Of a DNA stretch of 64,000 nt, positions 36,233 to 64,000 are shown one piece after another. The DNA lies in the NCBI RefSeq assembly GCF_040739495.1, contig NZ_CP145263.1:2046001-2110000 (forward strand), given 5' to 3'. Made by a program: the position numbers and the translations under genes. Under the pieces are notes generated by a model, which ran no database searches, had not been told where the DNA came from, and saw nothing but the letters and a program-made list of their open reading frames with translations. This DNA comes from Staphylococcus capitis subsp. capitis (GTDB lineage Bacteria > Bacillota > Bacilli > Staphylococcales > Staphylococcaceae). Position 1 is the first letter of the stretch; each line of letters begins with the position of its first letter.

Positions 36233-36790
36233 TTAATCGAAACAACTAGCAGATGCTCCTACCATTCCAGAAGATACACCACCTATTACTCCACCAATAG
36301 CAGAACCAACTCCTACAGAAACCGGTGTTGCACCAATAGCTCCATATCCTGCACCACTGGCAGCTCCACCACCAGCGCCACCTAATGCAGAACCCCCAGT
36401 ACCTAAGGCACATTTTTTCCAATTAGTTTTGCGCTCAGCAGTTCCACTATCCTCAGATAATTTAACATCTCCAACTATGTTATTATCAACGATTTTATAA
36501 CTAACGTTAGCTTGTTTATTATTTTTATTTTTAACTTTTACAGGTAATTTCTCAGACTTACCAGTATTTTTATCAACTATAGTGGCTTTACCATCCTTAA
36601 CTTTACCTTCAGCATATTTATTAGGCACAACTTTAAATTGTCCATCATTAATTTTAACAACTTTAACTTGAGCTTTAGTAGATTTTTCTTCTTGAGCATT
36701 TACACCATTAACGTGATAATCAGCTATTCCAATGCTTGAAGTAAATAATAATCCTGTAACAGATAATGAAGCTAATATTTTTTTATACAT
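36233..36790 (-). CDS. Secreted precursor with Cys-bounded Gly-rich C-terminal domain; putative bacteriocin
   Basis: 185 residues starting MYKKILASLSVTGLLF, preceded by AAAGGGG; six further codons upstream lie in that ribosome site. A Sec signal probably ends at VNA before QEEKST. The middle (about 35-125) is Lys-rich (QFKVVPNKYAEGKVK). The last 60 residues are a hydrophobic Gly/Ala-rich block (GTGGSALGGAGGGAASGAGY ... GGVIGGVSSGMVGASAS) with only two Cys, one at each end. Such a tail released from a longer precursor is known for halocin C8-type and several pore-forming bacteriocins. Toxic activity is inference; no family match was tested. Confidence 0.6.
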   Translation of the reverse strand: MYKKILASLSVTGLLFTSSIGIADYHVNGVNAQEEKSTKAQVKVVKINDGQFKVVPNKYAEGKVKDGKATIVDKNTGKSEKLPVKVKNKNNKQANVSYKIVDNNIVGDVKLSEDSGTAERKTNWKKCALGTGGSALGGAGGGAASGAGYGAIGATPVSVGVGSAIGGVIGGVSSGMVGASASCFD

Positions 36791-36860
36791 TAAGTAGACC
36801 CCTTTCAAAATGTAAACAGACCCTTATTAAACATCCCCCCACACACTTTATCATAATATA

Positions 36861-38519: not shown

Positions 38520-39304
38520 GGTTCTGTTGCAAAGTTGAATTTATAATATAATTTTAACAAAAAGGAGTCTTCTGTATGAACTATTTCAGATATAAACAAT
38601 TTAACAAGGATGTTATCACTGTAGCCGTTGGCTACTATCTAAGATATGCATTGAGTTATCGTAATATATCTAAAATATTAAGGGAACGTGGTGTAAACGT
38701 TCATTATTCAACGGTCTACCGTTGGGTTCAAGAATATGCCCCAATTTTATATCAAATTTGGAAGAAGAAGCATAAAAAAGCTTATTACAAATGGCGTATT
38801 GATGAAACGTACATCAAAATAAAAGGAAAATGGAGCTATTTATATCGTGCTATTGATGCAGAGGGACATACATTAGATATTTGGTTGCGTAAGCAACGAG
38901 ATAATCATTCAGCATATGCGTTTATCAAACGTCTCATTAAACAATTTGGAAAACCTCAAAAGGTAGTTACAGATCAGGCACCTTCAACGAAGGTAGCAAT
39001 GGCTAAAGTAATTAAAGCTTTTAAACTTAAACCTGACTGTCATTGTACATCGAAATATCTGAATAACCTCATTGAGCAAGATCACCGTCATATTAAAGTA
39101 AGAAAGACAAGATATCAAAGTATCAATACGGCAATACTTTAAAAGGTATTGAATGTATTTACGCTCTATATAAAAAGAACCGCAGGTCTCTTCAGATCTA
39201 CGGATTTTCCCCATGCCACGAAATTAGCATCATGCTAGCAAGTTAAGCGAACACTGACATGATATATTAGTGGTTAGCTATATTTTTTACTTTGCAACAG
39301 AACC
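38520..39304 (+). mobile_element. IS431 copy 3, carrying a 4-bp deletion
   Basis: 785 bp with both terminal inverted repeats. It lacks four bases in the transposase gene near 39,135, as does copy 4. Flanks TTTTCGTC and ATGTATAA show no target duplication. With copy 4 it brackets the repeat-protein gene pair in direct orientation. Confidence 0.94.
38576..39246 (+). pseudogene. tnp: IS431 transposase, frameshifted (copy 3)
   Basis: Identical to the intact transposases through INTA at residue 186. A 4-base deletion (ACGGCAATACTTT where intact copies have ACGGCAAAGAATACTTT) then causes IL and a stop at 39,142. The catalytic Asp, Asp and Glu are upstream of the break but the last 38 residues are lost, so activity is doubtful. 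Confidence 0.93.
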
Positions 39305-39340: not shown

Positions 39341-39384
39341 AAGGGACAAACGCTGTCATTTCAGCGTTTGTCCCCTTTCTTTTG
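39341..39384 (+). terminator. Strong hairpin after IS431 copy 3
   Basis: Perfect 13-bp stem GGGACAAACGCTG / CAGCGTTTGTCCC followed by C/T-rich TTTCTTTTG. It belongs to the tail of a gene replaced by the insertion. Confidence 0.7.
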
Positions 39385-39444: not shown

Positions 39445-41487
39445 TTATTCATTTGTTTTACGTTTGCGATTAACAAATAATGTCGCAAGTCCGCTTAAAC
39501 CTAATATACTTGCAATGCTAGCTAATAAGCCCTTGCTTTCTTGGTTTTCTTCACCTGTTTCAGGAAGTTCATTTGCACTGTGTTCAGTTTTTTCGCCATG
39601 TGTTACTTCTTTTTTATCTGGTGTTGTTTCAGTTGTGCTTGTTGTTATTGTTTTTGGAGTTTCAGTTGATTCCGAAGCAGAACCTTGACCATAACCTTGA
39701 CCATAACCATGTGCATGTGTCATAGCTGGTGTTATTGTAGCAGCTGTAATGGGTGCTACTGGACTTTTACCATTGTGTTTACCGTCTTTTGATGTTGTAT
39801 TGTGATTGCCTTTATTGTCAGTGTCTTTAGATGGTTCTGATTTTGAATCATCTTGACCATCATCTTTACCTTGGTGGTGATCATCTTTGTCAGATTGATC
39901 TGGTTTTTTAGTATCATCATCTTTTGAACCTTTGTGATGATCTTTGTCGTTATGGTCTTTGTCTCCTTTGTGGTTATCTTGACTATCATCTTTACCTTGG
40001 TGGTGATCATCTTTGTCAGATTGATCTGGTTTTTTAGAATCATCATCTTTTGAGCCTTTGTGATGATCTTTGTCGTTATGGTCTTTGTCTCCTTTGTGGC
40101 TATCTTGACCATCACCTTTACCTGGATGTTGATCATCTTTGTCACCTTTATGATGATTGTCTTTACCGTCATCTTTTGGGTCGTCACTATGATCTTTATG
40201 ATCATTATCTGAAGGTTTTGATGCGTCTTGGTGATCACCTTTATTTATATTGGATTGGCTTCCACCATTTCCAATTCCATTACCTTTATTTTCATTAGAT
40301 TGATCAGCTTTTCCGCCTTCATTTTTATTAGATTGAGAACCACCATTTGCAATACCATTACCAGCATGTGTATTTGATTGATGTGCTTCTCCACCTTTAT
40401 TTTTATTAGTTTGGCGTCCACCATTTAAGATACCGTTACCTTCATGATGATTTTCTTGAGAAGCTTTTCCACCATCATTTTTATTATGTTGAGCTCCTCC
40501 ATTTAATGCACCTTTACCATTATGTGTATTTACTTGGTCAGCTTCGCCTTTTTTATTTACGTTATCTTGCCAACCACCATTGGCAATACCACGTCCATCA
40601 TGACGATTTGTTTGGTTTGCTTTATCGCCTTTATTAAGGTTGCCTTGTGCACCACCATTAGCGATACCATTACCATTATGGTCATTTGTTTGTGTAGATT
40701 CACCATTTTTATTATGGTTGTCTTGGATGCCACCGTTTAAAATACCGTTACCTTTATTGTTATTTGTTTGTTCAGAATCTCCACCACGGTTTGTATTACC
40801 TTGCATACCACCGTTTAATTTACCATTACCTTGGTTTTTATTGTCTTGTTTTGCTTGACCACTTGTATTTAAATTGCCTTGTGTACCGCCATTTAATTTA
40901 CCGTTACCTTGGTTTGTGTTATTTTGATTTGATTTACCACCTGTATTCAAGTTACCTTGAGTACCACCGTTTAATTTACCATTACCTTGGTTGTCATTTT
41001 TTTGAGTAGCGTCGCCGCCTTCACTCTTATTGCCTTGCGCACCGCCATTAGCTACGCCATTACCTTGATGAGCGTTTGTTTGATCAGCTTTTCCGCCTTC
41101 ATTTTTGTTACCTTGTGAGCCACCATTAGCTACGCCATTACCTTGGTTGTCATTTTTTTGAGTAGCGTCGCCGCCTTCACTCTTATTGCCTTGCGCACCG
41201 CCATTTAGTACACCGTTACCTTGATGAGCGTTTGTTTGATCAGCTTTTCCGCCTTCATTTTTGTTACCTTGTAAGCCACCGTTAAGTAAACCATTACCTT
41301 GATTCTCGTTACTTTGAACAGTCTTTTGTTGTCCTGAATTGTCATTTGTTTGTGCTGCGTGAGCTGATGCATTACCGAAAGCTAAAGGAGCAGCTAGAGC
41401 TAGTGAAGAAATAGTAACTGCTATTAACTTGTTGTTATATTTTCTTAAACCTTTCTTTTGTATAGTGTTATTTTGAATTTTTTTCAT
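39445..41487 (-). CDS. LPETG wall-anchored protein with 26-residue Asn/Gly/Gln repeats
   Basis: 680 aa. Signal peptide 1-45 (GLRKYNNKLIAVTISSLALA ... SAHAA). From residue 60 come thirteen full and one partial 26-residue repeats of the form N-x3-GNG-x2-NGG-x-Q-x-N-x-N-x-GG-x3-Q (e.g. NDNQGNGVANGGSQGNKNEG). The repeat is itself two similar halves. Residues from about 420 are an Asp/His/Lys-rich spacer (DDHHQGKDDGQDDSKSE) with its own internal repeat, then a Ser/Thr-rich stalk. LPETG begins at 641, followed by a hydrophobic helix and RKRK: sortase A substrate. The repeats resemble curlin repeats in spacing of Gly, Asn and Gln, so a beta-solenoid or amyloid is plausible. Its paralogue 41,909-42,733 lacks the anchor. 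Confidence 0.85.
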   Translation of the reverse strand: MKKIQNNTIQKKGLRKYNNKLIAVTISSLALAAPLAFGNASAHAAQTNDNSGQQKTVQSNENQGNGLLNGGLQGNKNEGGKADQTNAHQGNGVLNGGAQGNKSEGGDATQKNDNQGNGVANGGSQGNKNEGGKADQTNAHQGNGVANGGAQGNKSEGGDATQKNDNQGNGKLNGGTQGNLNTGGKSNQNNTNQGNGKLNGGTQGNLNTSGQAKQDNKNQGNGKLNGGMQGNTNRGGDSEQTNNNKGNGILNGGIQDNHNKNGESTQTNDHNGNGIANGGAQGNLNKGDKANQTNRHDGRGIANGGWQDNVNKKGEADQVNTHNGKGALNGGAQHNKNDGGKASQENHHEGNGILNGGRQTNKNKGGEAHQSNTHAGNGIANGGSQSNKNEGGKADQSNENKGNGIGNGGSQSNINKGDHQDASKPSDNDHKDHSDDPKDDGKDNHHKGDKDDQHPGKGDGQDSHKGDKDHNDKDHHKGSKDDDSKKPDQSDKDDHHQGKDDSQDNHKGDKDHNDKDHHKGSKDDDTKKPDQSDKDDHHQGKDDGQDDSKSEPSKDTDNKGNHNTTSKDGKHNGKSPVAPITAATITPAMTHAHGYGQGYGQGSASESTETPKTITTSTTETTPDKKEVTHGEKTEHSANELPETGEENQESKGLLASIASILGLSGLATLFVNRKRKTNE

Positions 41488-41649
41488 AAATAAATTCCCC
41501 TTTCTAAAATAGTGTTTCTATTACATAAAATAACATTACCGTTTTTCAAGTATATCAAACATTTTTAGAAAATTTGTGCGAAAAAATGTAAAATATCCCT
41601 ATTTTTTGTAAAGAGATAGAAATATCTTTTTCTGATTTTAAAACAGAAC

Positions 41650-41850
41650 CGTTTATTTAAAGATAAGGTTAAGCATGTCGGTATGACTCATAGTATATCT
41701 CTAGTAGGAAAGTGCAATGACAATGATTCTATGGAAGGCATATGGAAAATTATGAAATGCAAATTGTATTTAAAGATTTCAATGAAGATAAACAAATTAT
41801 TAATGAGTATATTCATTTTTGGTTCAGAGAGAATTACATTGAAAATGGTT
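41650..41850 (+). pseudogene. IS3-family (IS150-like) transposase remnant
   Basis: The segment HSISLVGKCNDNDSMEGIWK matches the conserved catalytic region of IS3-family OrfB, which typically has HSMSRKGNC-DNA-ES/EG-F. After one frame change it continues as KDFNEDKQIINEYIHFWFRE, the usual end of the domain. Only about 65 residues are left. It lies between the two repeat-protein genes. Confidence 0.65.
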
Positions 41851-41880
41851 GATTCTGTTTTATACAAAATCAACCATCTC
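41845..41880 (-). terminator. Probable terminator of the secreted repeat protein gene
   Basis: Stem ATGGTTGATT / AATCAACCAT downstream of the stop at 41,909 on the minus strand. Confidence 0.6.
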
Positions 41881-41908
41881 ATTTATTTATTAATATTAAG
41901 TAATGTCT

Positions 41909-42733
41909 TTAACTATGAAATAATTCTTTGATTAGATTTACAATTCCTCCACCATTACTTTTATTGCCTTGTAATCCGCCATTAAAGAAGCCTTTACCTT
42001 CATGGGCATTGCTTTGAGCAACTGATCCACCATTATTTTTGTTACCTTGAGCACCGCCATTTTTGAAGCCATTACCTTGGTTGTCATTTTTTTGAGTAGC
42101 GTCACCGCCGTTGCTCTTATTACCTTGTAGTCCACCGTTCTTTATACCATTACCTTCGTGGGCATTGCTTTGATCAGTTTTTCCACCATTATTTTTGTTA
42201 CCTTGAGCACCGCCATTTTTGAAGCCATTACCTTGATCTTCGTTTTTTTGAGTAGCGTCACCGCCGTTGCTCTTATTACCTTGAGTGCCACCGTTTAATA
42301 TGCCATTACCTTCGTGGGCATTGCTTTGATCAGTTTTTCCACCATTATTTTTGTTACCTTGAGCACCACCATTAAGGAATCCGTTACCTCCATGATCATT
42401 TTTTTGGGCAGCATCACCGCCGTTACTCTTATTACCTTGAGTGCCACCGTTTAATATGCCATTACCTTCGTGGGCATTGCTTTGATTAGCTGATCCGCCA
42501 TTATTTTTATTACCTTGTAATCCACCATTAAGGAAACCATTACCATGGTTTTCATTACTTTGAACAGTCTTTTGTTGCCCTGAATTATCATTTGTTTGTG
42601 CTGCATCAGCTTCTGCATTACCAAAAGCTAGAGGTACAACTAAAGCCAGTGAAGAAATAGTAACTGCTATTAATTTGTTATTATATTTTCTTAACCCTTT
42701 TCTTTGTACAATATTAGTTTTAGTATTTTTCAT
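41909..42733 (-). CDS. Secreted, unanchored paralogue of the 26-residue repeat protein
   Basis: 274 aa. The first 60 residues are nearly the same as in the LPETG protein (GLRKYNNKLIAVTISSLAL, then ADAA-QTNDNSGQQKTVQSNE). Seven complete and one near-complete repeats follow, alternating two types (NAHEGNGILNGGTQGNKSNG and NxxxGNGFxNGGAQGNKNNG), so the super-repeat is 52 residues. Repeats are more uniform than in the anchored protein. It ends in GGGIVNLIKELFHS, a short amphipathic helix, with no LPXTG, membrane helix or Lys/Asp stalk. It should be released from the cell. Its separate AGGAGG-type site and promoter region upstream (42,740-42,985) suggest independent transcription. Confidence 0.82.
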   Translation of the reverse strand: MKNTKTNIVQRKGLRKYNNKLIAVTISSLALVVPLAFGNAEADAAQTNDNSGQQKTVQSNENHGNGFLNGGLQGNKNNGGSANQSNAHEGNGILNGGTQGNKSNGGDAAQKNDHGGNGFLNGGAQGNKNNGGKTDQSNAHEGNGILNGGTQGNKSNGGDATQKNEDQGNGFKNGGAQGNKNNGGKTDQSNAHEGNGIKNGGLQGNKSNGGDATQKNDNQGNGFKNGGAQGNKNNGGSVAQSNAHEGKGFFNGGLQGNKSNGGGIVNLIKELFHS

Positions 42734-42989
42734 AAATAAAATTCCTCCTTAATTAATAATTAATGTCTTTCCTATAACAATGTTTAACCACTAGTCGAAT
42801 ATATTAAACATATTTTCTGAATTTAAAAATTTGAAAAAACAACCTACTTATACCGAATGTGAATGCCATATTAAATAATATAACTGGATAATAAATAATA
42901 TATGAATTGCTCCCTACCTTCAATAATAATAAAACATCTTGAAAATCATACTAGGAGAACAAAAGGTTCAAATGAAACAAAAAATTGAT

Positions 42990-43774
42990 GGTTCTGTTGC
43001 AAAGTTGAATTTATAGTATAATTTTAACAAAAAGGAGTCTTCTGTATGAACTATTTCAGATATAAACAATTTAACAAGGATGTTATCACTGTAGCCGTTG
43101 GCTACTATCTAAGATATGCATTGAGTTATCGTAATATATCTAAAATATTAAGGGAACGTGGTGTAAACGTTCATTATTCAACGGTCTACCGTTGGGTTCA
43201 AGAATATGCCCCAATTTTATATCAAATTTGGAAGAAGAAGCATAAAAAAGCTTATTACAAATGGCGTATTGATGAAACGTACATCAAAATAAAAGGAAAA
43301 TGGAGCTATTTATATCGTGCTATTGATGCAGAGGGACATACATTAGATATTTGGTTGCGTAAGCAACGAGATAATCATTCAGCATATGCGTTTATCAAAC
43401 GTCTCATTAAACAATTTGGAAAACCTCAAAAGGTAGTTACAGATCAGGCACCTTCAACGAAGGTAGCAATGGCTAAAGTAATTAAAGCTTTTAAACTTAA
43501 ACCTGACTGTCATTGTACATCGAAATATCTGAATAACCTCATTGAGCAAGATCACCGTCATATTAAAGTAAGAAAGACAAGATATCAAAGTATCAATACG
43601 GCAATACTTTAAAAGGTATTGAATGTATTTACGCTCTATATAAAAAGAACCGCAGGTCTCTTCAGATCTACGGATTTTCCCCATGCCACGAAATTAGCAT
43701 CATGCTAGCAAGTTAAGCGAACACTGACATGATATATTAGTGGTTAGCTATATTTTTTACTTTGCAACAGAACC
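42990..43774 (+). mobile_element. IS431 copy 4, carrying the same 4-bp deletion
   Basis: 785 bp with both inverted repeats, same strand and same deletion as copy 3. Flanks AAATTGAT and ATATTCTT differ. Copies 3 and 4 together form a pseudo-compound transposon of 5,255 bp (38,520-43,774). Confidence 0.94.
43046..43716 (+). pseudogene. tnp: IS431 transposase, frameshifted (copy 4)
   Basis: As copy 3: 186 correct residues, then IL and stop at 43,612 caused by the 4-base deletion near 43,605. The two genes look identical, so one is most likely a duplicate of the other. Confidence 0.93.
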
Positions 43775-44934: not shown

Positions 44935-45798
44935 ATGAAAATATCAGATATTACTAAGAAGTACAAAGATAATACGGTATTAGATCATTTAAATTTTTCA
45001 TTTGATTCTAGTCATATCGTTGGATTAATTGGGAAAAATGGAGTCGGAAAAACTACCATTATGAAAATTATGAACGGCAATATTGTGAACTTTAAAGGCA
45101 AAGTTGATTTTGACCAAAATCAAAAAATTGGTTATTTAATTGAACATCCTAAGTTATATCAAGACCTATCGGGATTAAAAAACTTAAAAAATTTTAGTAA
45201 TATATTAGGTGTAAAGTTTGATAAAGACTATGCTAATAAAATTATAAAAGCATTTGATATGGAAAGTTATATTAACAAAAGAGTAAAAAAATATTCTTTA
45301 GGAATGAAACAAAAACTAGCAATCGCTGTGTCTTTAATAAACAAACCACATTACTTAATACTTGATGAGCCTACGAACGGTATGGATCCAGATGGTTCAA
45401 TAGATGTATTGAATACTATTAAAGATATAACTAACGAATTCAATATGAGAGTACTAATATCTAGTCATAAATTAGAAGATATAGAACTCATATGTGATAG
45501 AGCTGTGTTTTTACGTGATGGAAAGTTTGTTGAAGACATTGATATGAAAAATACATCATCACAAGAGTATACATCTATCTCATTTAATGAAAATGATGTG
45601 GAAAAAGCGAAACATCATTTAAGTTCGAAATCATATGATTCGATCAAGAAAAATGGAAACATTTTGATAATTCCAAAGCTCGATAATTATCAAAATTTAC
45701 TAAAAGATTTAGCTAATATTAATATATTTCCAATTAAAATTGAAGATAAAATAAGTACACTTAGGGATACTTACTTTAATATTAATAAAGGAGAATAA
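44935..45798 (+). CDS. ABC transporter ATPase (BcrA-like)
   Basis: 287 aa. Walker A GKNGVGKTT near residue 36, signature YSLGMKQKLAIAVSLI, Walker B YLILDEPTNGMD, switch SSHKLED, then a C-terminal extension of about 75 residues. GGAGAG precedes the ATG. With the permease that follows four bases later it forms a two-gene exporter of the peptide-resistance type. Sizes also resemble one ATPase/permease pair of the staphylococcal PSM exporter Pmt, but no specific motif supports that choice. Confidence 0.85.
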   Translation: MKISDITKKYKDNTVLDHLNFSFDSSHIVGLIGKNGVGKTTIMKIMNGNIVNFKGKVDFDQNQKIGYLIEHPKLYQDLSGLKNLKNFSNILGVKFDKDYANKIIKAFDMESYINKRVKKYSLGMKQKLAIAVSLINKPHYLILDEPTNGMDPDGSIDVLNTIKDITNEFNMRVLISSHKLEDIELICDRAVFLRDGKFVEDIDMKNTSSQEYTSISFNENDVEKAKHHLSSKSYDSIKKNGNILIIPKLDNYQNLLKDLANINIFPIKIEDKISTLRDTYFNINKGE

Positions 45799-45801
45799 AT
45801 A

Positions 45802-46530
45802 ATGAGTATATATCATTTAACAAAATTTAATATATCAAGATTGCTAAAAAATCCTTTCAATTATATTGGTTTACTATTTGTTCTAATAATCCCCATATTT
45901 TATACAATGACTCAGATTCATAATAACCATAAAGTTTCTGGAGAAACTATTTTAACTCTTTCAACATGGCTATTTGCATTTTGGGGAGTGATGATTATTA
46001 CTAGCTTTTTAGTCAGAGACTTTTCTCAGGGTACATCACAATTGTATTTGAATAGTTTAAAAAATAGAGCGAAATACTTTATATCTCAACTGATATCCAT
46101 CTTAATTGCTAGTGTCATAGTATTTCTAACATTATATGTATTCGTTTTAATAATGCAAAATATTGGCGATGGTCAACCTATAAAAAATGAAGTGGTTGGA
46201 AAAACTTTAGGAATATACATCCTATTATTTTTGTTCTATGGTCTATTTTTATTTCTAATCACTTTATTAGTAAAAAGTTCTTCTTTAGTATTTTCAATTG
46301 GTGTTTTTCTTATATTAATCATACCTATAGCAACCAATTTAGTTCCATTAATTCCAGAATATGGTGATGAAGTTAAAAAAGCCTTAAAATATATACCTTT
46401 TAACTTTTTAATTGATAATGTTTGGCTTGGATCTCTCAAATTAAATGGATGGCAAACATTTATCTCAATAGCTTCAGTAATACTACTAGCTATCATTGAC
46501 TTCTTCACTATTTCTAAAAAAGATTATTAA
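45802..46530 (+). CDS. ABC-2 type permease
   Basis: 242 aa with six membrane segments (PFNYIGLLFVLIIPIFY, TWLFAFWGVMIITSFLV, QLISILIASVIVFLTLYVFV, IYILLFLFYGLFLFLITLLV and two more) and the cytoplasmic stretch VRDFSQGTSQLYLNSLKNRA typical of ABC-2 permeases. Partner of the ATPase upstream; a terminator follows. Substrate unknown. Confidence 0.8.
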   Translation: MSIYHLTKFNISRLLKNPFNYIGLLFVLIIPIFYTMTQIHNNHKVSGETILTLSTWLFAFWGVMIITSFLVRDFSQGTSQLYLNSLKNRAKYFISQLISILIASVIVFLTLYVFVLIMQNIGDGQPIKNEVVGKTLGIYILLFLFYGLFLFLITLLVKSSSLVFSIGVFLILIIPIATNLVPLIPEYGDEVKKALKYIPFNFLIDNVWLGSLKLNGWQTFISIASVILLAIIDFFTISKKDY

Positions 46531-47758: not shown

Positions 47759-48376
47759 ATGATTCAGACTATTGTAACTGCTGCTATTCTTTATATTGCG
47801 ACAGCAGTAGATTTATTAGTGATTTTATTAATATTTTTTGCTAGAGCAAAGACTAGAAAAGAATATAGAGATATTTATATTGGTCAATATGTAGGATCTG
47901 TGACATTGATTGTCGTAAGTTTATTCTTTGCCTTTGTCTTAAATTATGTTCCTGAAAAATGGATATTAGGATTATTAGGGTTAATACCGATTTATTTAGG
48001 AATTAAAGTAGCTATTTATGATGATTGTGAAGGAGAAAAGAGAGCTAAAAAAGAATTGAATGAAAAAGGATTGTCTAAATTAGTTGGTACGGTTGCAATT
48101 GTTACGATAGCAAGTTGTGGTGCTGATAATATTGGTTTATTTGTTCCGTATTTTGTGACATTAAGTGTTACTGATTTATTAATTACTTTGTTTGTCTTTT
48201 TAATTTTAATTTTCTTCTTGGTATTTACTGCACAAAAATTAGCTAATATTCCAGGAGTTGGAGAAATTGTTGAGAAATTTAGTCGTTGGATTATGGCTGT
48301 TATTTACATAGCTTTAGGTTTATACATTATTATTGAAAATGACACTATTGGAACAATTTTAGGATTTATATTTTAA
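47759..48376 (+). CDS. cadD: CadD cadmium resistance transporter
   Basis: Membrane exporter of the CadD family giving low-level cadmium resistance. 205 aa with about five helices; family stretches AILYIATAVDLLVILLIFFA, YIGQYVGSVTLIVVSLFFAF and the conserved TIASCGADNIGLFVPYF. GAGGTG precedes the ATG. Co-transcribed with cadX 18 bases downstream. Confidence 0.93.
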   Translation: MIQTIVTAAILYIATAVDLLVILLIFFARAKTRKEYRDIYIGQYVGSVTLIVVSLFFAFVLNYVPEKWILGLLGLIPIYLGIKVAIYDDCEGEKRAKKELNEKGLSKLVGTVAIVTIASCGADNIGLFVPYFVTLSVTDLLITLFVFLILIFFLVFTAQKLANIPGVGEIVEKFSRWIMAVIYIALGLYIIIENDTIGTILGFIF

Positions 48377-48818: not shown

Positions 48819-49391
48819 TTGAACTTTACAAAAGATTTAAATCAAAAAGAAAACGAATTAAGGATTAATATCATAAATAAAATTTGCGAAAACCCTAATA
48901 AAGAAATAGATATAATCCCTGAATATAAATCTTTAATAGACAAAAAAGTTATAACTACTGAAAATAACAAAATCAAATGTATATATCCTATATCTTCTGA
49001 AAAAACAAATAAACTCGTCTATACAAACAAAAGCAAAGAACCCTTATTTGCAATGTGTGCAATAGACGCTATAGGTATATATTATACAACAGGTTTAAAC
49101 ATATTAATTCTAAGCGAAGACGAATTAACTAAAGAAAAAATTAAGCTAGAAATAAAAGATGATAAAATAATCAATCACAGTAAAAGTAATATTTATATTT
49201 CATACAAAGATGTTTGTGTAAAAAAAGATTGTGACAAAAATTGCTGTCCTTACATACACTTCTTCACAAGTAGAAATAACGCCGAAAACTATTTAAATAG
49301 TTTGCCAAATAAAGAATCTCATAAAATATTAAATCTTAAACAAGCAAAAGAAATTTCAAAACAATTATTTAAAATTCATAGTTTGTCTTAA
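48819..49391 (+). CDS. MerB (alkylmercury lyase)-like protein under a Zur box
   Basis: 190 aa, starting at TTG with GGAGACGG upstream. The core EPLFAMCAIDAIGIYYTTG and CDKNCCPYIHFFTSRNNAENYL matches MerB, which splits C-Hg bonds with Cys96, Asp99 and Cys159; here Cys80, Asp83 and Cys142/143 correspond. Residues 1-75 contain a winged-helix-like segment as in MerB. There is no merA, merR or merT nearby; it follows cadD-cadX. The Zur-type operator suggests a role in zinc limitation, perhaps metal or ligand handling, rather than mercury resistance. Confidence 0.72.
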   Translation: MNFTKDLNQKENELRINIINKICENPNKEIDIIPEYKSLIDKKVITTENNKIKCIYPISSEKTNKLVYTNKSKEPLFAMCAIDAIGIYYTTGLNILILSEDELTKEKIKLEIKDDKIINHSKSNIYISYKDVCVKKDCDKNCCPYIHFFTSRNNAENYLNSLPNKESHKILNLKQAKEISKQLFKIHSLS

Positions 49392-55676: not shown

Positions 55677-56546
55677 TTAATTATCCTCCCATTTTTCTTC
55701 TAATTGACGTTGAAATGCTTCTCGATCTTTTTTTAATTGAGGGTCATAGTCTGTATGAGCATGTTGTCCCTTATATAAACCAGTTTCAAGCCATCTAGGT
55801 GTTTTCTCACGATTAGTATATTAGCGCGACTTACCTATATTAGTTATTTGTGGTTGTCGTTTGTTGTAAATACGTTTCTCAGCGTCAAAGATAAATTCTA
55901 AGTATTCAATTTTTCGACCTTTTTTAGCTTTAACTTTATTAATATTAAGATTATTAAAAATAGGTGTAAGCTCTTTAGATATTGGCTTTAATACACGTTT
56001 AGTAATGTCACACATTTGATAAGACTTTGATACGTCTAATCGAGTTCTAAAATCTTCCATTGATAATTTTAAATATCCAGTATGTTTATATTGTTTAAGT
56101 AAGCGAAACATGGTTTTAGAGTACGAAGATTTTAAATTAGTCAGTTCTTTTAATTCGAATTTTGTAAAATTACGAGTAATATCATTTAAAACAAACTTTA
56201 AGTCAGGATTAGTGGAAATTTCAAGATACTTCTCCGTTTTATGAATTTTAAAGTGATTGAAAAGTACAAAAAACTCTATTACATCCTCATCTTCTCTTCG
56301 ATAAGTTATCTCGAGCATCTTTTTATAAATATTTTGTAAATCTCCAATAAAACGATTAAGATTTCTAGTTTCATAGTTATAATTACTTAAATATTTAAGT
56401 TCTTCAAAACTTAAATATAATTTATTAGTATCTTGTTCTTTTAGCTTATTACACATAGCGAAAAATAAATCTATTTCAACAGAAGTAAATTTTCTCAAAG
56501 GAACCAAATTCATTTCATTATGATAAATAACAGTTCCGTTCGACAT
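55677..56546 (-). pseudogene. rep: Rep_3 family replication initiator with in-frame premature stop
   Basis: Starts MSNGTVIYHNEMNLVPLRKF and carries both winged-helix halves of Rep_3: EIDLFFAMCNKLKEQ, FVLNDITRNFTKFELKELTN and LKSSYSKTMFRLLKQYKHTG, then TRLDVSKSYQMCDITKRVLK and KKGRKIEYLEF. After NIGKSR a TAA at 55,821-55,823 ends the frame at 241 aa. The same frame continues NREKTPRWLETGLYKGQHAH and DREAFQRQLEEKWEDN to a stop at 55,677, giving 289 codons. So a single nonsense change (CAA to TAA would do) removes the tail. Both DNA-binding domains remain, so partial activity is possible. Bases 55,473-55,676 and 56,547-56,849 hold no gene; no iterons were evident. Confidence 0.8.
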
Positions 56547-61987: not shown

Positions 61988-62536
61988 TTATTTTTTGATT
62001 ACACGATATACAGTTGACCTACTTACGCCAGTAGCTTCGGCTATTTGTTCACCGGTCATTTTTTGTTCATCATATAGGAACTTAATTTCTCTTTTTTTAT
62101 GATCAGGCATGGGTGGACGTCCACCGACGCGCCCTCTCGCTCTTGCAGAAGCAAGCCCCTTTTTAGTACGTTCGCTTAAAAGATTGGCTTCGAGTTCAGC
62201 AAAAGCACTCATCATCGTAAAAAACATTTTACCCATTGCATCTTTTGTATTGATATTCATATCAATAATTTGTAATTCAATATTATTATTTTCTAACCAT
62301 TGAGCTAATTCTATTAATTGTTTCGTTGTTCGACCTAAGCGATCAAGTTTATAAACAACTAATGTATCTTCTTCACGTAAATATTCTAGACATTTGTCTA
62401 ACTCTGATCGTTTTATTTTTCGCCCACTCACTTTTTCTTTAAATATTTTTGAACAGCCAAAGTTTTTTAAAATATCGATTTGGCTATCTAAACTTTGATC
62501 TTGTGTTGAAACACGAGCATAACCAATTTTAGCCAT
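61988..62536 (-). CDS. Serine recombinase (resolvase/invertase, Bin/Tn552 type)
   Basis: 182 aa small serine recombinase. Nucleophile Ser10 in IGYARVSTQDQSLDSQ, VYKLDRLGRTTKQLIELAQW, FFTMMSAFAELEANLLSERT, hinge GRVGGRPPM and C-terminal HTH GEQIAEATGVSRSTVYRVIK. Function: resolves plasmid multimers or transposition cointegrates at a res site, probably in the 60 bases upstream. On staphylococcal plasmids such genes often lie beside ars or bla operons, as here. Confidence 0.9.
   Translation of the reverse strand: MAKIGYARVSTQDQSLDSQIDILKNFGCSKIFKEKVSGRKIKRSELDKCLEYLREEDTLVVYKLDRLGRTTKQLIELAQWLENNNIELQIIDMNINTKDAMGKMFFTMMSAFAELEANLLSERTKKGLASARARGRVGGRPPMPDHKKREIKFLYDEQKMTGEQIAEATGVSRSTVYRVIKK

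Positions 62537-63035: not shown

Positions 63036-64000
<965 letters not shown>

Follow-up and report, generated by a model that had tools for sequence, protein, structure and literature searches.

Two neighbouring genes of Staphylococcus capitis subsp. capitis, which lie in a 64,000-nucleotide stretch of its genome (positions 2,046,001 to 2,110,000 of contig NZ_CP145263.1, hereafter the window), encode a wall-anchored and a secreted protein built on the same 26-residue repeat. The pair is real, selected and plasmid-linked, it belongs to a repeat family that lacks a curated model, and it probably folds as a beta-solenoid; a template-and-subunit role for the two proteins is plausible but unproven. 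Our tentative reading, which we hold with less than even confidence, is that of an uncapped beta-solenoid pair, with the secreted protein stacking on the wall-anchored one.

Both genes are read from the minus strand and are separated by 421 bases, the anchored gene being downstream of the secreted one in the reading direction. A preliminary description of this DNA, made from its letters, had presented them as adjacent genes with a common signal peptide, lead-in and repeat, one form (680 residues) having a stalk and an LPETG motif and the other (274 residues) no anchor, and our analysis confirms this. The pair and its parts are as follows.

39445-41487, minus strand: anchored repeat protein of 680 residues (open reading frame; LPXTG anchor PF00746)
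41353-41487, minus strand: signal peptide of the anchored protein, residues 1-45 (read by eye from the sequence)
41272-41352, minus strand: lead-in coil of the anchored protein, residues 46-72 (residues 46-62 the same as in the secreted protein)
40258-41271, minus strand: 13 full 26-residue repeats of the anchored protein (last 7 modelled by AlphaFold2)
39766-40236, minus strand: Asp/Lys/His-rich stalk (from composition; AlphaFold2 predicts no structure in the part modelled)
39553-39567, minus strand: LPETG sortase motif (PF00746 and motif search)
39341-39376, minus strand: terminator-like hairpin after the anchored gene (terminator scan; 15 pairs, 8 of them G-C)
41909-42733, minus strand: secreted repeat protein of 274 residues, without anchor (open reading frame; no family match; AlphaFold2 model)
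42734-42989, minus strand: upstream region of the secreted gene (aligned as 42734-42990, four loci)
42599-42733, minus strand: signal peptide of the secreted protein, residues 1-45 (read by eye from the sequence)
42518-42598, minus strand: lead-in coil of the secreted protein, residues 46-72 (compared with the anchored lead-in)
41972-42517, minus strand: 7 full 26-residue repeats of the secreted protein (register cut; AlphaFold2 model)
41912-41947, minus strand: amphipathic C-terminal tail of the secreted protein, residues 263-274 (conservation and hydrophobic moment)
41846-41876, minus strand: inverted repeat after the secreted gene, a possible terminator (read from the sequence; the terminator scan did not report it)

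The anchored protein matches the Gram-positive anchor of Pfam (PF00746) at 23.5 bits for a cut-off of 20, with LPETG at residue 641, and scores just under the cut-off of NCBIfam TIGR01167 (15.8 versus 15.9 bits). It has the attributes of a sortase-anchored surface protein, namely a C-terminal LPXTG motif, a hydrophobic segment, a charged tail and a sortase encoded in the genome, which has two such genes. Its stalk spans 157 residues, of which 30% are Asp, 20% Lys and 13% His. At E up to 1, Pfam and NCBIfam gave nothing beyond the anchor motif for this protein, and neither a family nor an anchor for the secreted one. The terminator scan returned 4 terminator-like sites in the window, against a mean of 2.0 in shuffled sequences.

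The repeat is under constraint and is not a product of chance. We cut the units in a strict 26-residue register from residue 73, which leaves 13 and 7 full units in the anchored and secreted proteins, respectively, plus partial units at both ends in both; the counts of 13-14 and eight given previously are thus fair, and the secreted units are indeed the more uniform ones (mean pairwise identity of 70.7%, versus 59.5% in the anchored protein). In nine of the 26 columns (Q1, N3, Q12, N14, G18, G20, N23, G24 and G25), a single amino acid is found in all 13 anchored units, which differ on average at about a third of their nucleotides. By comparison, 1000 neutral simulations along a neighbour-joining tree, with a mean pairwise difference of 0.32 against the 0.33 observed, gave a mean of 0.2 invariant columns and never more than 2. 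Synonymous codon changes are found at seven of the nine. Over all unit pairs, which come from related units and are not independent, eight of the invariant columns (G25 is outside this set) have 185 synonymous and 0 nonsynonymous differences, compared with 253 and 821 in the remaining 18 columns; the zero arises by construction, because these columns were chosen as invariant, and it is the synonymous changes that constitute the evidence.

The conserved positions (1, 3, 5, 7, then 8, 10, 12, 14, 16, 18 and 20) alternate with variable ones over positions 1-20, as expected of beta strands with one face inside, and the alternating stretches coincide with the strands later predicted by AlphaFold2. 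As the statistic, we took the strongest alternation that any phase and split point gave. Of 5000 permutations in each case, 3 equalled the observed value for the 13 anchored units, and 25 did so for the 47 distinct DNA units of eight genes (the gene of plasmid p45A5, see below, being excluded). Each repeat had been described as two half-repeats with Gly, Asn and Gln at fixed places. The fixed columns are there; instead of halves, we find an alternation at every second residue and about three predicted strands per coil.

It is likely, and moderately supported, that the 26-residue repeat is one coil of a beta-solenoid. In the AlphaFold2 models, a repeat has about three strands, predicted with moderate confidence, and no structure is assigned to the repetitive stalk. 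The model of the secreted protein has a mean predicted local distance difference test score (pLDDT) of 67.3 and a predicted template-modelling score (pTM) of 0.64; for the anchored protein, block means of pLDDT are 61-80 in repeats 7-13 and 38-54 in the stalk. The best alignments to solved folds are beta-helices. The beta-solenoid proposed in the preliminary description gains support from the alternation, from the synonymous changes at most invariant Asn and Gly codons, and from the coils predicted in the diverged C-terminal repeats of the anchored protein but not in its stalk.

The pair recurs outside the window. A second one is present in this genome at a distance of about 182 kb, with a secreted protein of 326 residues and an anchored one of 658, and it is likewise placed between two insertion sequences of the IS257 type. 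The preliminary description, whose coordinates are correct, had left out this second pair as well as the IS257-type elements that flank the first. Among 72,556 plasmid records, relatives were found in three, all of S. epidermidis (pSE1, pML7049-2 and p45A5). Plasmid pSE1 has the same pair as the window. In pML7049-2, the secreted gene stands beside a differently built anchored protein (locus L011, 9631-11427), which has the same N-terminus and repeat, another upstream region, and a long stalk of Ser/Asp/Lys units followed by a degenerate repeat just before LPNTG. Overall, secreted and anchored genes are side by side at four of the five loci. In a sample of the genus with one genome per species (84 genomes), the protein or the repeat profile was found only in the genome of the window, and no relative withstood inspection in samples of 299 phylum and 398 class genomes. 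Two scans of a contig collection with one genome per species gave pattern matches of which none was confirmed as a relative, a weaker negative because repetitive sequence may be lost at the confirmation step. No title listed by our searches of the open literature deals with this repeat pair, which we do not take as absence from print.

The start of the mature proteins is what suggests how they might interact. The lead-in (residues 46-72) is almost identical in both proteins and is itself repeat-like, so that the solenoid would begin at the mature N-terminus without a cap. Residues 46-62 are identical, with 5 synonymous differences at 9 synonymous sites and 0 nonsynonymous ones; in the same comparison, the proportion of nonsynonymous differences (pN) is 0.20 for repeats 73-228 and 0.12 for the signal peptide. 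We propose that the two genes encode one beta-solenoid protein in two forms, one attached to the wall and one released. Each repeat would make one coil, with Gln, Asn and small residues stacked inside and the variable residues outside, and the mature proteins would have no N-terminal capping domain, the solenoid starting directly behind the signal peptide. The anchored protein would be tied to the peptidoglycan by its C-terminus through a flexible charged stalk, and, being held in this way, its N-terminal solenoid edge would face outward, away from the wall. The C-terminal edge of the secreted protein would then probably add to this exposed edge, and subsequently to further copies, a stacking that we propose because both proteins share their first 17 mature residues. 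With the anchored protein as a putative nucleator, the outcome may be a filament or mesh that grows outward from the cell and possibly contributes to biofilms, and the pair would move as a cassette linked to plasmids and IS257.

By its sequence, the secreted gene is no mere truncation of the anchored one, a possibility that the preliminary description had raised against its own proposal. A decayed and functionless truncation would agree with the signal peptide, lead-in and repeat being common to both genes, and with a locus that is rich in insertion sequences and prone to recombination. However, the secreted gene has its own upstream region, which differs from that of the anchored genes and has a mean column identity of 98% over four loci, and its repeats are of a distinct subtype. 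Its tail is kept in all four secreted copies, with one E/K change, and their frames (274, 326, 274 and 378 residues) stay open while varying in length by whole repeats. The gene is also retained next to a different anchored partner on pML7049-2. We therefore regard a mere fragment as very improbable. The tail has a hydrophobic moment of 0.56 at 100 degrees, which is equalled by 1.4% of 20000 shuffles. A link between this tail, of which amphipathicity is the only property computed, and phenol-soluble modulins is a lead; a PSM-beta gene is present on two of the plasmids.

Two other explanations concern the fold and the role of the proteins. The repeats may form a beta-solenoid rod that does not polymerise, with the anchored form acting as an adhesin or as a spacer off the wall, and the secreted form as a soluble competitor, a decoy or a free matrix protein for the same ligand. 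We find this possible, if rather doubtful: solenoid adhesins generally have a separate domain or cap, whereas the mature proteins here begin directly in the repeat, and a rod leaves the identical first 17 residues and the conserved tail unexplained. Alternatively, the repeat may be disordered, the proteins being flexible, hydrophilic Asn/Gln/Gly polymers that hydrate the biofilm matrix or phase-separate in it and have no defined fold. The repeats of nine genes are indeed made of 23-28% G, 20-25% N and 8-11% Q, with few hydrophobic residues, the AlphaFold2 models are widely spread, and this method has a known tendency to produce spurious beta-solenoids from perfect repeats (PMC11795689). Yet, disorder does not predict fixed Q/N/G columns that alternate with variable ones, and the same AlphaFold2 run left the repetitive stalk of the same chain unstructured, so that we consider this explanation unlikely.

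The bias of AlphaFold2 also counts against the stacking pair that we favour, and so do several other points. The five models differ widely (mean pLDDT of 38-67 and 36-59; whole-model pTM of 0.64 and 0.49), Foldseek gave no match at E 0.001 or better, and with only about 5-8% of strongly hydrophobic residues the repeats would have a thin core. The two invariant Gln columns are uninformative on selection because they have no codon change. The identity of the lead-ins might stem from export or processing instead of docking, and pML7049-2 provides no test of docking because its two lead-ins are identical in DNA too. On p45A5 (L010, 7762-9952), the anchored gene is split in the stalk into two annotated frames, from either a frameshift or a sequencing error, and it has no secreted neighbour. 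Finally, only one of the four pairs is clearly distinct, the other three being close copies of a single element.

The pair sits on integrated plasmid DNA. The window is part of a 2.44-Mb contig in a 2.48-Mb genome, the DNA around the pair is plasmid-like, and 53% of window positions 36000-60900 matches the S. epidermidis plasmid pSE1 at 95.7% identity. The features of this setting are the following.

38520-39304, plus strand: IS257-type element on one side of the pair (terminal inverted repeats; transposase open reading frame 38576-39142)
42990-43774, plus strand, same orientation: IS257-type element on the other side of the pair (terminal inverted repeats; transposase open reading frame 43046-43612)
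47759-48376: cadmium transporter, plasmid-like cargo
48819-49391: MerB-like protein, plasmid-like cargo
55821-56546: Rep3 replication initiator, plasmid-like cargo
61988-62536: resolvase, plasmid-like cargo
63036-63950: ArsB, plasmid-like cargo

Six IS257-type elements with exact 15-base end repeats are found between 28673 and 53926, and the two that bound the pair have the same shortened transposase frame (188 codons, versus 224 in the other copies). A pair of ABC transporter genes is near three of the repeat-pair loci, as if travelling with them: at 44935-46530 in the window, at L012 3170-4765 beside the second chromosomal pair (DNA 98.4% identical to that of the window), and at L011 3860-5455 on pML7049-2 (96.2% identical DNA). 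Two small exported proteins were also observed. The one at 36233-36808 of the window (191 residues) has a Gly/Ala-rich C-terminal part and no match above the curated cut-offs of Pfam and NCBIfam. The other, of 131 residues, is at the locus of the second pair (L012, 1728-2123), and it looks like a bacteriocin of the lactococcin 972 type.

Among known systems, several invite comparison. The anchored protein resembles the Clf-Sdr type of wall proteins, which have a signal peptide, a charged low-complexity stalk and LPXTG, as it does; it differs from them in that neither a ligand-binding N-terminal domain nor a YSIRK signal was matched by Pfam or NCBIfam, the repeat making up the whole exposed part. 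To our knowledge, neither Bap nor Aap uses a second secreted gene, and the soluble form here is encoded by a separate gene instead of being a proteolytic product. Both are surface proteins, and amyloid fibres in the biofilm matrix have been reported for the staphylococcal Bap (PMC4915627) and for the Aap B-repeats of S. epidermidis (PMC11178275). Bap or G5 domains were absent from the window proteins, for which Pfam at E up to 1 gives the anchor motif only. In terms of fold, the model of the anchored repeats has a weak and non-significant resemblance to the functional amyloid FapC (PDB 9u4u; Foldseek rank 4, E 0.95, probability 0.01), and a search with a FapC-like string found 0 matches. For the right-handed beta-helix proteins SufB/SufD, SRRP and pectate lyases, sequence identity is 4-10%, so that the resemblance concerns the fold class only and implies no function.

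In the comparison with curli, the gene architecture fits. The preliminary description had seen in the pair the logic of CsgB and CsgA, an anchored nucleator with a soluble subunit. This holds as an analogy: in both systems, Gln, Asn and Gly have fixed places in tandem repeats of a solenoid type, which is a prediction for the present pair, and a surface-held paralogue stands side by side with a soluble one; membership in the curli family does not hold. The curli repeat has about 22 residues, versus 26 here, and the present pair is anchored by sortase. Repeats with Gln, Asn and Gly are given as the preserved feature of CsgA and CsgB, and curli genes as reported in a single Firmicutes, in PMC3521004, where the minimal repeat is X6-Q-X-G-X2-N-X10 (Dueholm 2012). 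The Q-x-G-x2-N motif occurs 0 times in both window proteins, versus 4 times in CsgA and 5 times in CsgB of E. coli K-12. The curlin profile PF07012, positive in the E. coli control, has no match in the genome of the window or, at E up to 1, in the whole proteins, and none of 10 repeat segments matches any Pfam family. Neither hhalign against a two-sequence alignment of CsgA and CsgB (probability 0.0) nor BLASTP with CsgA (E 13) revealed homology, and CsgG (PF03783; controls positive in 4 of 14 genomes) is absent from the genome, where it is not expected without an outer membrane. On these grounds, we reject curli membership.

Even if the solenoid alone is correct, the pair represents a repeat family that was matched by no Pfam or NCBIfam model and follows a simple, testable Gln/Asn/Gly code, and which can help to decide when a solenoid predicted by AlphaFold2 for a repeat protein deserves trust. 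It is also conceivable, though we lean against it, that the pair is a plasmid-borne, sortase-anchored solenoid fibre system of a skin staphylococcus, unrelated to curli in sequence. In it, a template bound covalently to the wall would expose its bare N-terminal solenoid edge and be extended into filaments by the secreted solenoid, which comes from a separate gene, has the same N-terminal edge and ends in an amphipathic tail. If so, plasmid carriage would make the surface and the biofilm matrix changeable in individual strains, and a template-plus-subunit fibre would have arisen independently of curli in a Gram-positive commensal.

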